Assembly (NCBI GenBank): GCA_030538275.1 | Contig: JAUNUH010000010.1 | Coordinates: forward strand, 1 to 64,000 | DNA: 64,000 bases | Direction: 5' to 3' | Source: Flavobacteriaceae bacterium | GTDB taxonomy: Bacteria > Bacteroidota > Bacteroidia > Flavobacteriales > Weeksellaceae | Notes under the pieces: model-generated | Databases searched by the model: none | Seen by the model: the letters and a program-made list of their open reading frames with translations, nothing else | What the model was told of the DNA's origin: nothing | Program-made: the position numbers and the translations under genes | In this document: positions 14,290 to 58,743 of the stretch, in pieces | Numbering within the stretch: position 1 is the first letter of the stretch | Layout of the letters: each line of letters starts with the position of its first letter

Positions 14290-14493
14290 TCATGAATTTT
14301 GTTGGATAAAGGTAAATAAATAAATTTTTTTCTGTTTGATTTTGATTTAATTTAACTTAAATCCTTCAGGAATAGGCTTACAATCAATTCAAAAAACAAA
14401 ATTCATCTTGCTTTTTGAAAAAATAGGCAGAAAGAACTTTTGGATGCGATGCGGGGTTTTATTTTTTGGTAAAATAGTAAAACGGAGCGCAAC

Positions 14494-14714
14494 AGGGACA
14501 GTAGCAGAAATCCTTGTATTGCTTCTTTGACCTATGGGTGGAATTTTTGGATCACTTCGAAATTCAAAAATATCGATGGCATTAAAATTCCAAGCAAAGC
14601 AATACAAGATTGGAGCGTATGGCCCGGTCCCGTCCCATCAAAGCGCAAGGGTTATATGGCGTTGCGTTGGGTGGTTATTTTCTTTGATGGGGCGGGAGTT
14701 GCCCAAAAAAACAA
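14494..14714 (-). repeat. Structured 3'-end repeat element, copy A
   Basis: This element fills the right half of the 429-bp gap between aspA and the carboxylase beta gene; the left half (14290-14493) is AT-rich and holds only the aspA promoter region. Two nested hairpins are visible: 14509-14524 with 14597-14611 (one bulged base), and 14634-14643 with 14682-14691, the latter enclosing CGCAA/TTGCG. Conserved blocks GATTGGAGCGTATGGCCCGG (14608-14627) and GCGGGAGTTGCCCAAAAAAAC (14692-14712) recur in altered form in copies B (37350-37556) and C (57930-58086). On the minus strand it starts within a few bases of the stop codon of the gene ending at 14719. Confidence 0.55.
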
Positions 14715-14718
14715 TCGT

Positions 14719-16260
14719 TTATAATGGAATATTACCGTGTTTTCTATCGGGTAAATTTACTTTTTTGTTTTCTAACATGGCAAAACCTTTGATGAGTTTG
14801 CGTCGTGTTTCTTTGGGCAAAATGACTTCATCTATAAATCCGCGTTCGGCTGCTGAGTATGGATTTGCGAATAAATCGGCGTATTCTGCTTCTTTTTCTT
14901 TCCATTTGGCTTCGGGATTTTCTGCTTCTGAAATTTCTTTTTTGAATATAATTTCTGCTGCTCCTTTGGCGCCCATTACTGCGATTTCTGCGGTGGGCCA
15001 GGCAAAGTTCAAATCGGCTTTGATGTGCTTGGAGTTCATAACATCGTATGCGCCGCCGTAGGCCTTGCGGGTGATAACGGTGATGCGCGGCACGGTGGCT
15101 TCACTAAATGCATAGAGTAGCTTGGCGCCATGAACAATGATGCCGTTCCACTCTTGATCGGTTCCTGGCAAAAACCCTGGAACGTCTTCTAGAACGAGCA
15201 TAGGAATATTGAAACAATCACAAAACCGGACAAATCTGGCGGCTTTTTTGGAGCTGTTCACGTCGAGAACGCCTGCCAAATACATAGGGTTGTTGGCGAT
15301 GATTCCGATGGATTTCCCGGCAAGTCTTGCAAATCCTACGATGATATTTTCGGCGTGGTCTTTATGAATTTCGAACCAAGAATCTGGATCGATAATATGC
15401 TGAATGACTTCGTGCATATCATAGGGTTTTGCGGAAGAATCGGGGATAATATTCATGAGCTCTTCGCGCATTTCGTCTTGTAAAGTATAAGGAATTTTTT
15501 TGGGTTTTTCTTTGTTATTCTGGGGGATATAACTCAATAATTTTTTGATATCTTCTAGGCAATCTACATCGTTGGCAGAGACAGTATGTGCAACGCCAGA
15601 TTTGGTGCTGTGCGTGCTTGCGCCACCCAATTCTTCTGATGTAACCTCTTCGTTTGTAACGGTTTTCACAACGTTGGGCCCTGTAACAAACATATAACTA
15701 GTATCTTGCACCATCATCGTGAAATCTGTGATGGCGGGAGAGTACACCGCTCCACCGGCGCATGGGCCCATGATGGCAGAAATTTGTGGAATAACGCCGC
15801 TGGCTTGTACATTTCTATAAAAAATATCTGCATATCCACCGAGCGAGCGCACGCCTTCTTGGATACGTGCGCCTCCAGAGTCGTTGAGCCCGATAACGGG
15901 TGCACCGACATCCAGTGCCATATCCATGATTTTGCAAATTTTTTCGGCATGTGTTTCTGAAAGTGAGCCTCCAAAAACGGTGAAATCTTGTGCAAAAATG
16001 TACACCAAACGGCCGTTGATTGTGCCATAGCCAGTAATTACGCCGTCTCCATAAATTTTTTGATTTTCCATTCCGAAATCCTTGGTTCGGTGGGTAACTA
16101 GCGCTCCAATTTCTTCGAAAGAACCTTCGTCTAATAAGTAAAGGACTCTTTCTCTTGCCGTAAGTTTTTTCTTATTATGCTGATTTTCAATTCTTTTATG
16201 GCCTCCACCCAGTAGAGATTGTTGAATTTTTTCTTGAAATATTTTAATTTGGGATTCCAT
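14719..16260 (-). CDS. Acyl-CoA carboxylase carboxyltransferase (beta) subunit
   Basis: A 513-residue biotin-dependent carboxyltransferase of the propionyl-/methylmalonyl-CoA carboxylase type, with N-terminal and C-terminal crotonase-like halves. Recognisable motifs are [12 protein letters not shown] (about residues 123-134), which binds the acyl-CoA, and a second GG-rich stretch [12 protein letters not shown] (about 399-410). The length matches PccB. It is the last gene of an operon with the biotin carboxylase (6-bp gap) and carrier protein. With the PrpE-like half of the fused synthetase at 54.0 kb, propionyl-CoA is a plausible substrate, giving methylmalonyl-CoA, but acetyl-CoA cannot be excluded. 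Confidence 0.9.
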
Positions 16261-37349: not shown

Positions 37350-37556
37350 TGCGCGTGAGGGATGCGTAGGGCTTGGTCACGTTACGGCCTACTGCACAAA
37401 CCTTGTTGCCGTAAGGTGACGGAACCCCGTAGCAGCCCGACCCTGCAAAATTGCGGCTTGTTATTATCGAGCTTTGCAAGTGGATAGAGAAATAGACTTG
37501 CTAGTATGTATGGTGTAATGCGGGAGTTGGCCGTGATTTTGCAGGGGCACGCCCAA
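37350..37556 (-). repeat. Structured 3'-end repeat element, copy B
   Basis: It occupies most of the 408-bp gap between the Omp28-like gene and rimP; the rest holds the rimP promoter and leader. The plus strand reads GCGTGAGGGATGCGTAGGGC, then a hairpin (37376-37388 with 37408-37420, one mismatch), the core GTAGCAGCCCGACCC, a second hairpin (37441-37451 with 37536-37546, perfect) and CACGCCCAAAGAAAC. The order of conserved block, variable stem, core, variable stem and CGCCC end matches copies A and C, while stem sequences differ. On the minus strand it begins 16-25 bases after the stop codon at 37581. Confidence 0.6.
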
Positions 37557-37580
37557 AGAAACTTATTTAGCGTTGTAATA

Positions 37581-38678
37581 TTAGTCGAAATCTTGACTTT
37601 GTCCTACTTTTACGTATTGTGCATTGATCACCTCGTTGTTATCATTGCCCAAAACGAAAGCCACAAGGCTTAATTTGTTATTATTCTCGACGGCAGATGG
37701 TATTGCTACATTAAAATCTTGGGTATAAATTCCTTGGTTTGCGATGAATTGTGGGGGAATTTCGTCTCCGAAGATATGGGTATATGCTTTTCTGAGCACG
37801 TGGTTGTGTTCATAATTGGGGATTCTGACTGGGTAAGTGCTGTAATTACAAGCTGCGTTTCCATTTCCAGAGAAGTAATTTTCTTGGCTATAAATTAGTC
37901 CATCCTCGAGTAAATATACAACTAGTTTGGCGTTTGTTATTTGATTGACTACAAATCCTACTTTTACTTGAAACTGAATTCGATTTGCGTTCATTTGCGA
38001 ATTGATTGCGATTCCTAGTGGTGCGGGTTGATCGAGGTATTCTTGAATCATGGCTTCGTAGTGCGTTTGATTGGTACCGCAGGTATCTGTAAAATGATTT
38101 TCCACGGCGAATTGGAATGGATAAACGCGGTTGATTTGTGCTCTTGGCAATCCTGTGGTGCCATAAGCTTCTTGTAATTGCGCTTGGAATTCGTATCTGT
38201 ATGGGTCTGAATCACAGTGAATTGCAACTGGAATTACGTTGTTGCTATAATTGGTAAAATGTTGAATTATATTATTCATTCCTGGGCAATATCCACACCA
38301 AGTTCCTGTATAGTCTTCGAATAGTACTTTTCTGGTATAGGTATCTGGGATTGTTTCTCTTGGTTCGCTTGCAAATTCGATGGTATTGGATGTGAATCCG
38401 TTCCAAGTTGCATAGGCTGTGTTGTCTTGTTGGGCGATGGTTGGTGTAAATGAATTTCCATCAATTTCCTCTCCATTTACATAAAAAGTGGCGTCTGAAG
38501 TTACGATTCCGGTATTTTGTGAAACGGCCGTAAAAGAAATTTCATTTCCAATATACACCAGGTTTGAGCTGGTTGAAATAGTAAGTGTATCTGGCACAAT
38601 TTCTTCTTCTGTTCCGCAAGAGAGCAAATTGAGTAAGATAAAAAGAGAGATGGCGATCGCTGACAGCTTATTTGTCAT
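37581..38678 (-). CDS. Omp28-family outer-membrane lipoprotein with thioredoxin-like CxxC motif
   Basis: A 365-residue lipoprotein (lipobox LLSC, Cys21). Residues about 30-105 look like an Ig-like domain. From about 115 it matches Omp28-type proteins, with the redox motif FEDYTGTWCGYCPGMNN (Cys128 and Cys131) in a thioredoxin-like context. Omp28 was described as an outer-membrane protein of Porphyromonas gingivalis with unclear function. It is transcribed divergently from the TlpA-like gene (56-bp gap), which opens a run of further exported proteins including a second Omp28-like protein at 40961-42838. Confidence 0.82.
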   Translation of the reverse strand: MTNKLSAIAISLFILLNLLSCGTEEEIVPDTLTISTSSNLVYIGNEISFTAVSQNTGIVTSDATFYVNGEEIDGNSFTPTIAQQDNTAYATWNGFTSNTIEFASEPRETIPDTYTRKVLFEDYTGTWCGYCPGMNNIIQHFTNYSNNVIPVAIHCDSDPYRYEFQAQLQEAYGTTGLPRAQINRVYPFQFAVENHFTDTCGTNQTHYEAMIQEYLDQPAPLGIAINSQMNANRIQFQVKVGFVVNQITNAKLVVYLLEDGLIYSQENYFSGNGNAACNYSTYPVRIPNYEHNHVLRKAYTHIFGDEIPPQFIANQGIYTQDFNVAIPSAVENNNKLSLVAFVLGNDNNEVINAQYVKVGQSQDFD

Positions 38679-57929: not shown

Positions 57930-58086
57930 CGCGACCCGGATAGAACGGATATCCCGCAAAGCTGTATGTCTAAACAAATAACAGCATACAAGATTGAAAG
58001 TGAAGCGAAAATCCTTGTATGCTGATTATTTGTGGGCATACAACTGCGGAATAGAAGTGATAGCCGGAAATGTCGCCCAAAAAAAC
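57930..58086 (-). repeat. Structured 3'-end repeat element, copy C (with duplicated stem arms)
   Basis: It lies between the converging synthetase and hydrolase genes. The plus strand reads GCGACCCGGATAGAACGGATATCCCGC, hairpin arms, GATTGAAAGTGAAGCGAAAATCC, more arms, GAAGTGATAGCCGG and TCGCCCAAAAAAAC, matching the block order of copies A and B. The 8-mer GCATACAA occurs at 57984-57991 and 58036-58043, and its complement TTGTATGC at 58014-58021, so the middle arm can pair with either side. On the minus strand the element begins 4 bases after the stop codon at 58090. Confidence 0.5.
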
Positions 58087-58089
58087 GAA

Positions 58090-58743
58090 TTATTTTACTT
58101 GTTCTATCCAGTCGAGCATGTCATAAAAGTTTTGTGGTACGATACCATGCCCGCTTCGATATTCTTTGTAAACATGTGGAATTTTGAGTTGATTGAGCCA
58201 TTGGTCAGCTTGTCGAGCCCAATCGATGGGAATCACAGTATCCTCTACGCCGTGAGAGATAAAGAATTGTAAATCAATGTATTCACCCTGCAATTTATCG
58301 CCGATAATATCGGGAGATGGGTAACCACTGAGGCAGATTACGCGTTTGATATTTTGTTGTTGCTGTAGTGTGAGCGCGTAGCTGAGGATGGCACCCTGAC
58401 TGAATCCTGTGAGCCAAACTTGGTCTGGATTGAGGTCGTGATTATCGATGCATTCTGCAATAAATTGTCGAATCAGGCTTATGGATTGTTGGGCTTGTTC
58501 TACATTATTGAACTTTTGCGCATCCATAAAATTGATGTCGTACCAGGCAAATCCACCATATGGAAGGCTACGCGGGGCACGAACCGAAATTATGAAAAAA
58601 TTATCGGGCAGCTGGTCAGCGAACGAAAACAAATCGGCCTCGTTGCTCCCATAGCCATGAAGTAGCAACATTAGCACAGGTTTTTTGATATTTTTGTGCG
58701 CAGGTTTGTAGAGGTAATTCAGTGATAAATCGGTTTGCAGCAT
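58090..58743 (-). CDS. Alpha/beta hydrolase (phospholipase/carboxylesterase family)
   Basis: A 217-residue serine hydrolase. The oxyanion-hole motif LLLHGYGSNEADLF is at about residues 26-39, the nucleophile elbow GFSQGA at about 112-117 (Ser114), the acid in HGVEDTVIP (about 169-177) and the catalytic His in RSGHGIVPQ (about 196-204). The order and length match the PF02230 carboxylesterases. Cytoplasmic, since no signal peptide is seen. Substrate unknown. Confidence 0.88.
   Translation of the reverse strand: MLQTDLSLNYLYKPAHKNIKKPVLMLLLHGYGSNEADLFSFADQLPDNFFIISVRAPRSLPYGGFAWYDINFMDAQKFNNVEQAQQSISLIRQFIAECIDNHDLNPDQVWLTGFSQGAILSYALTLQQQQNIKRVICLSGYPSPDIIGDKLQGEYIDLQFFISHGVEDTVIPIDWARQADQWLNQLKIPHVYKEYRSGHGIVPQNFYDMLDWIEQVK

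Follow-up and report, generated by a model that had tools for sequence, protein, structure and literature searches.

Three copies of a folded intergenic element allied to the Rfam family Flavo-1 (RF01705) occur in the window, the whole 64-kb stretch of DNA analyzed here, and comparison of related genomes revealed that Flavo-1 sites persist while their contents are replaced by those of other copies. We tentatively favor reading Flavo-1 as a REP/REPIN-like DNA repeat, dispersed between genes and non-autonomous, that is recognized as a folded single strand. This reading is preferred because the position of the element, its strand relation to genes, and its block replacement need no transcription. 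The three window copies, the parts of copy 1, and the adjoining genes are as follows.

14489..14711, + (folded strand): copy 1, whole Flavo-1 element (Rfam, anatomy scan, fold)
14489..14493, +: copy 1, P1 5' arm GCAAC, pairing with GTTGC at 14698-14702
14498..14513, +: copy 1, box 1, ACAGTAGCAGAAATCC (Rfam alignment)
14514..14607, +: copy 1, P3 variable hairpin, TTGTATTGC...GCAATACAA (Rfam alignment, fold)
14608..14622, +: copy 1, box 2, GATTGGAGCGTATGG, antiparallel to box 1 (Rfam alignment, family covariation)
14628..14697, +: copy 1, P4, second hairpin, the other stem of an earlier sequence-only reading (fold)
14698..14711, +: copy 1, P1 3' arm GTTGC and constant tail CCAAA (fold, P1 arm comparison)
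37353..37558, +: copy 2, divergent relative, P1 GCGTG/CACGC, P4 at 37441-37547 (anatomy scan, fold)
57931..58083, +: copy 3, divergent relative, P2 CCGG/CCGG, AAAT at 58068-58071, long P3 (anatomy scan, fold)
14719..16260, -: gene adjoining copy 1, stop codon 16 nt away, presumably carboxyltransferase-like (ORF list)
37581..38678, -: gene adjoining copy 2, stop codon 28 nt away, with an orthologue in G001 (ORF list)
58090..58743, -: gene adjoining copy 3, stop codon 13 nt away (ORF list)

All three copies have the same order on the + strand: P1, a short P2, box 1, the variable hairpin P3, box 2, P2, P4 or a bulge, P1, and GCCCAAA. The closing stem P1 is GCAAC/GTTGC, GCGTG/CACGC, and GCGAC/GTCGC in copies 1, 2, and 3, and the 3' side carries the second hairpin P4 in copies 1 and 2 and a 4-nt AAAT bulge in copy 3. 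Copies 1 and 3 fit a pattern in which the two boxes pair by way of P2 and the central step and enclose P3. Copy 2 retains P1, P2, P4, and the tail, but its box region is a different variant with symmetric CGTAG/CGTAG boxes, unlike copies 1 and 3. The boxes of copy 3, GATAGAACGG and AGTGATAGC, follow the family covariation as read from the sequence. The tip of its P3 (CAAGATTGAAAGTGAAGCGAAAATCCTTG, ~57985-58025) resembles box 2 followed by box 1 and looks like a permuted inner Flavo-1 core nested within the element. Fold z-scores on the + strand were -3.6 (copy 1), -4.4 (copy 2), and -8.1 (copy 3). Read on the minus strand, each site presents a stop codon, a T run, GGGC, and then a long foldable stretch.

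A scan for this anatomy (closed-fold P1 and GCCCAAA within 240 nt) recovered exactly three matches in 64 kb, each of them on the + strand, while 20 windows shuffled by mononucleotide gave no match; the scan was drawn up after the three copies were known, so its value is the lack of other matches in the window and the shuffles. The claim of the sequence-only reading that the window holds three copies in the same orientation is thereby confirmed. That reading also had each copy begin about 4-25 bases from a stop codon. The copies do lie near minus-strand stops, at slightly wider distances of 16, 28, and 13 nt from the P1 end for copies 1, 2, and 3.

Copy 1 matches RF01705 with 43.1 bits at 14487-14633 + (gathering score, 42) and has the same boxes and the same P2-P3 fold. 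Copies 2 and 3 had no Rfam match even at an E value of 5, so strictly only copy 1 scores as RF01705; the other two were classed as Flavo-1 relatives through shared anatomy. It is close to certain that the three form one family allied to Flavo-1. The Rfam model has 76 positions and lacks the outer P1, the P4 or bulge, and the tail, which is GCCCAAA or GCTCCTAAA. Box and P2 pairing are already part of the Rfam structure; what is added here is P1, the 3' hairpin or bulge, and the strand statistic given below. Flavo-1 was described as an orphan family without known function and rated 'y' as an RNA, not as cis-regulatory (Weinberg et al. 2010; PMC2864571), and Rfam assigns it the type 'Gene; sRNA'. 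The sequence-only reading was thus correct that a structured family of this kind is present in other Flavobacteriia, and the name it did not give is Flavo-1.

Matches to Flavo-1 were found in 43 of 79 relatives within the order (1 to at least 51 per genome) and in none of the other 36. Deeper scoring gave at least 110 copies in G010, 123 in G093, 68 in G097, 40 in G027, 37 in G028, and 38 in G033. The genome search missed copy 1 itself, so every copy number is a lower bound, and Rfam alone undercounts the family. None of 14 control genomes had a match; among the genomes searched, Flavo-1 was seen only in Bacteroidetes relatives. Two further forms were observed. In an inner type (L364, L365, and L366), CCCACAGCA...GCGAGGA replaces the T/A-rich base of P3. 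Another subclass, GCAGCCCGACTTGAGYGG...GGAGCGGAAGGCGGATTAAGCTGCCCAAA, scores below the gathering score and has its own outer stem, CAGC/GCTG (L367:2065-2142, L371:3748-3849, L372:2704-2806, and L375).

The Flavo-1 fold is real, and selection acts on it on one strand. In the box motif, all pairs of the central step are Watson-Crick in 131 of the 137 distinct copies, in the combinations GT/AC (45), AC/GT (44), GC/GC (32), and AT/AT (10), the letters at this step being restricted by the pattern that collected the copies. P2 covaries, its second pair being C-G in 86, T-A in 24, G-C in 23, and A-T in 1 of the 137; Flavo-1 copies share ancestry, so these counts are not independent events. (A first covariation pass used 114 copies.) Mismatches in P3 that are flanked by true pairs were G-T in 29 cases vs A-C in 5 (137 distinct copies, p = 4e-5). 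This bias would reverse on the other strand, so the relevant strand is that of Rfam, which in the window is the + strand, the one opposed to each of the three upstream genes.

P1 arms are complementary in 11/11 copies from the window's own genome in which P1 was read, the three window copies included, a result that is favorable by construction since the arms were chosen from folds. Seven P1 pairs were represented (GCAAC/GTTGC, GCGTG/CACGC, GCGAC/GTCGC, GCGCC/GGCGC, GCGAT/ATCGC, GCGGT/ACCGC, and GCGTT/AACGC). Shuffling of the 3' arms gave a mean of 1.9 matches, and 11 were reached in 0 of 20000 shuffles. The order of P1 and tail was afterwards verified by script, in which L004 is unlisted because its arms are closer than the distance window of the script. 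The sequence-only reading had proposed that structure is selected, with stems that differ between copies yet remain self-complementary, and the box and P2 covariation together with the P1 arms bear this out.

Rfam's view, that the folded strand is a small RNA or a protein-binding UTR element controlling or stabilizing transcripts, is possible and in our judgment somewhat unlikely. It draws on the strong covariation, on the excess of G-T over A-C on one strand, and on the G.A mismatches in the box motif, tandem mismatches of this kind being a typical feature of structured RNA. The Rfam type and the published rating as an RNA (PMC2864571) agree with it. Against it, the relation of the element to the direction of transcription is not constant. 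Gene contexts of 70 copies, in folded-strand orientation (F, element; arrows, flanking genes), were <F< 26, >F< 18, >F> 16, and <F> 10, in a set that contains orthologues and for which genes were called as simple open frames. The difference between the codirectional contexts (26 vs 16) is not significant. Within the window, the genes flanking copy 1 run in one direction, as do those flanking copy 2, and those flanking copy 3 (an acs-like gene and 58090..58743) converge; the upstream gene and the folded strand are antisense to each other at 3/3 sites.

Position relative to transcripts varies as well. The locus L090 of G010 was traced in 23 congeners, where nearly every species has a recognizable element (a few are degenerate, and a contig end truncates one) and gene A varies. 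In several of these species the element lies between the intrinsic terminator-like hairpin of gene A and the promoter of gene B. Such a hairpin is on the opposite side of the element at copy L082, so some copies are within transcripts and others are between them. No common promoter was seen by eye upstream of the listed copies. The context result agrees with RNA-seq of F. psychrophilum, in which Flavo-1 matches show no bias toward sense or antisense and in many cases fall outside transcribed regions (PMC9723704). We infer that DNA, not RNA, is recognized, because all gene contexts are used and some copies sit between a terminator and a promoter.

Comparison of the sister species G010 and G038 identified 15 orthologous Flavo-1 sites with 82-96% identity in the flank alignments. 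Element cores are 91-100% identical at nine of the sites and 69-76% identical at the other six, where they are as unlike as unrelated copies. At five of these six, the version in one genome is 90-100% identical to another copy within that genome, and in two example alignments the flanks are recognizable right up to the element. One of the six (G010:C1:1723499 vs G038:C10:101199) has different elements with only the downstream flank conserved and a non-homologous upstream side; synteny may be broken there. Contents at fixed sites are thus replaced, by ectopic gene conversion or by insertion into an occupied site, both of which explain the G010/G038 data equally. Another short repeat (TATTGCG/TCATTGCG...CGCAATGA) was observed inside P3 of some copies (G010:C1:1681930-1682021 and 1767420-1767515; G038:C10:58991-59086) and could be one route by which the stem changes.

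On a longer scale the sites themselves are gained or lost. The gene pair around copy 2 is separated by 207 bp in G001, with no element, vs 492 bp in the window genome (G000); at 68-71% identity, this filled and empty pair is too diverged for the element ends to be read. The site of copy 1 has a terminator-like hairpin in G001 and an element of a different class in G002, and the neighbors of copy 3 are not syntenic in either genome. A pattern search, which divergent copies could escape, found the element after the gene of copy 1 in 0/80 named relatives. No clean empty site with a target duplication was found in the G010/G038 blocks, G001, or G002.

One defined strand (+ here) folds into P1, P2, the box motif, and P3, with P4 or the bulge on the 3' side. 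The box motif is two-fold symmetric, with G.A mismatches around the covarying central pair step, and under the REP-like reading the folded single strand would be recognized by some component of the cell. New sites would arise slowly, and existing sites would be retained while other copies replace what they contain, the copying being done by a dedicated enzyme or by host recombination. The modest lagging-strand preference described below speaks for this reading in some genomes, and its lack in others speaks against it. Further evidence against it is that no mobilizing enzyme was found, that close pairs of copies bracket no recurrent gene, that plasmids, phages, and viral contigs gave no match in a search that had no positive control, and that no insertion with clean ends or a target duplication was seen. 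The retention of one locus across 23 congeners also counts against it, since such retention would be superfluous for a purely selfish element. A narrower version, in which Flavo-1 is a self-propagating folded-ssDNA repeat that copies mainly into occupied sites (homing-like) by means of an unrecognized, non-RAYT enzyme of Flavobacteriia, seems unlikely to us.

Several candidates for a mobilizing partner were considered. Among Flavo-1 carriers, 31 of 43 have Y1 transposase genes, vs 5 of 36 non-carriers. A Y1 transposase or RAYT was rejected as the partner; Y1_Tnp genes are missing from the Flavo-1-rich G038 and from the genome of the window, and Flavo-1 was never beside one (0/30 loci by pattern, 0/20 by Rfam scan). 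An autonomous partner gene bracketed by paired copies was also rejected, as pairs 1.2-3 kb apart enclose different ordinary genes, none of them recurrent. In the same Rfam scan, matches below the gathering score to 'Acido-Lenti-1' (RF01687) flank 4 of 20 flavobacterial Y1_Tnp genes, once on both sides (L042:1944-1988, L053:1281-1390, L054:1396-2058, and L058:1233-1280). This 'RNA' may be the REP of those Y1 transposases; its identity with the CATTGCGA repeat was rejected.

Flavo-1 could also be a chromosomal DNA site, bound or processed by a nucleoid protein or in replication, repair, or supercoiling and kept by the host at operon boundaries, which we regard as quite unlikely. The retention of one site in 23 congeners while neighboring genes change is in its favor, as is the result that no Flavo-1 was found on plasmids, phages, or viral contigs, a weak negative given that the search had no positive control for flavobacterial DNA and that the low-complexity filter of BLAST may mask part of the query. 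A lagging-strand preference in some genomes points the same way. With replication boundaries taken from coarse GC-skew profiles, the folded strand is on the negative-skew (lagging) strand for the larger share of copies in G010 (73/110 copies, p = 8e-4) and, among the matches listed, in G097 (40/58, p = 0.005) and G093 (53/92, p = 0.17), three genomes of one genus with shared ancestry. G027 and G028 lack this preference, and in G033 it does not reach significance. Universal replication polarity was therefore rejected, and the strand preference, which is modest, is kept as a tendency in one genus and as a lead. Besides this lack of universality, copy numbers from 0 to >120 among relatives imply no essential role and count against a chromosomal site.

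The proposal of the sequence-only reading that the copies are 3'-UTR modules terminating or processing the upstream mRNA is very improbable: a stop codon does face the 3' side in 3/3 window copies and in 44 of 70 sampled copies, often 3-20 nt away, but a start codon does so in the other 26, so the stop-codon placement holds in part; the element is preceded by a separate terminator in some species; and it follows the gene of copy 1 in none of the 80 named relatives. The scan for terminator-like hairpins gave nothing for copies 1 and 3; its one match, in copy 2, is a weak 5-pair site on the strand opposite to the gene and near chance. On the gene strand of the window copies the T run comes before the fold, not after it, and an intrinsic terminator was rejected, there being no G+C-rich hairpin with a T run on the transcribed strand.

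Flavo-1 is a known orphan family, a common unexplained folded element of Flavobacteriia catalogued as an sRNA without function, to which new facts on its evolution are added here. Its anatomy is now fuller, with an outer stem, a 3' hairpin or bulge, and a constant tail, and its folded strand is fixed statistically. Sites that persist while their contents are exchanged between copies make DNA recombination worth study alongside RNA; the placement and replacement observed here need no transcription.

Among known systems, MITEs are likewise non-coding, dispersed, and present or absent between species. For Flavo-1, however, there was no sign of a parent transposon, of terminal inverted repeats, or of a target duplication, and structure is conserved on one strand only. 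The attC sites of integrons also have conserved boxes around a variable terminal hairpin, one folded strand, and a position often just past a stop codon. Flavo-1 differs in being scattered singly among ordinary genes and not in cassette arrays, an isolated placement that argues against integron membership, and in the one copy examined (L004) its outer arms are GTT...AAC vs AAC...GTT in attC. REP, REPIN, and BIME elements (with RAYT transposases; GTAG or CGTC tagged) are, like Flavo-1, short intergenic folded repeats with no coding capacity, tens to >100 copies, and a strand-defined hairpin. Compared with REP, Flavo-1 is longer and has a two-box internal loop, no RAYT beside it, and no established GTAG/CGTC foot, and its stems vary freely between copies where those of REP are near constant.
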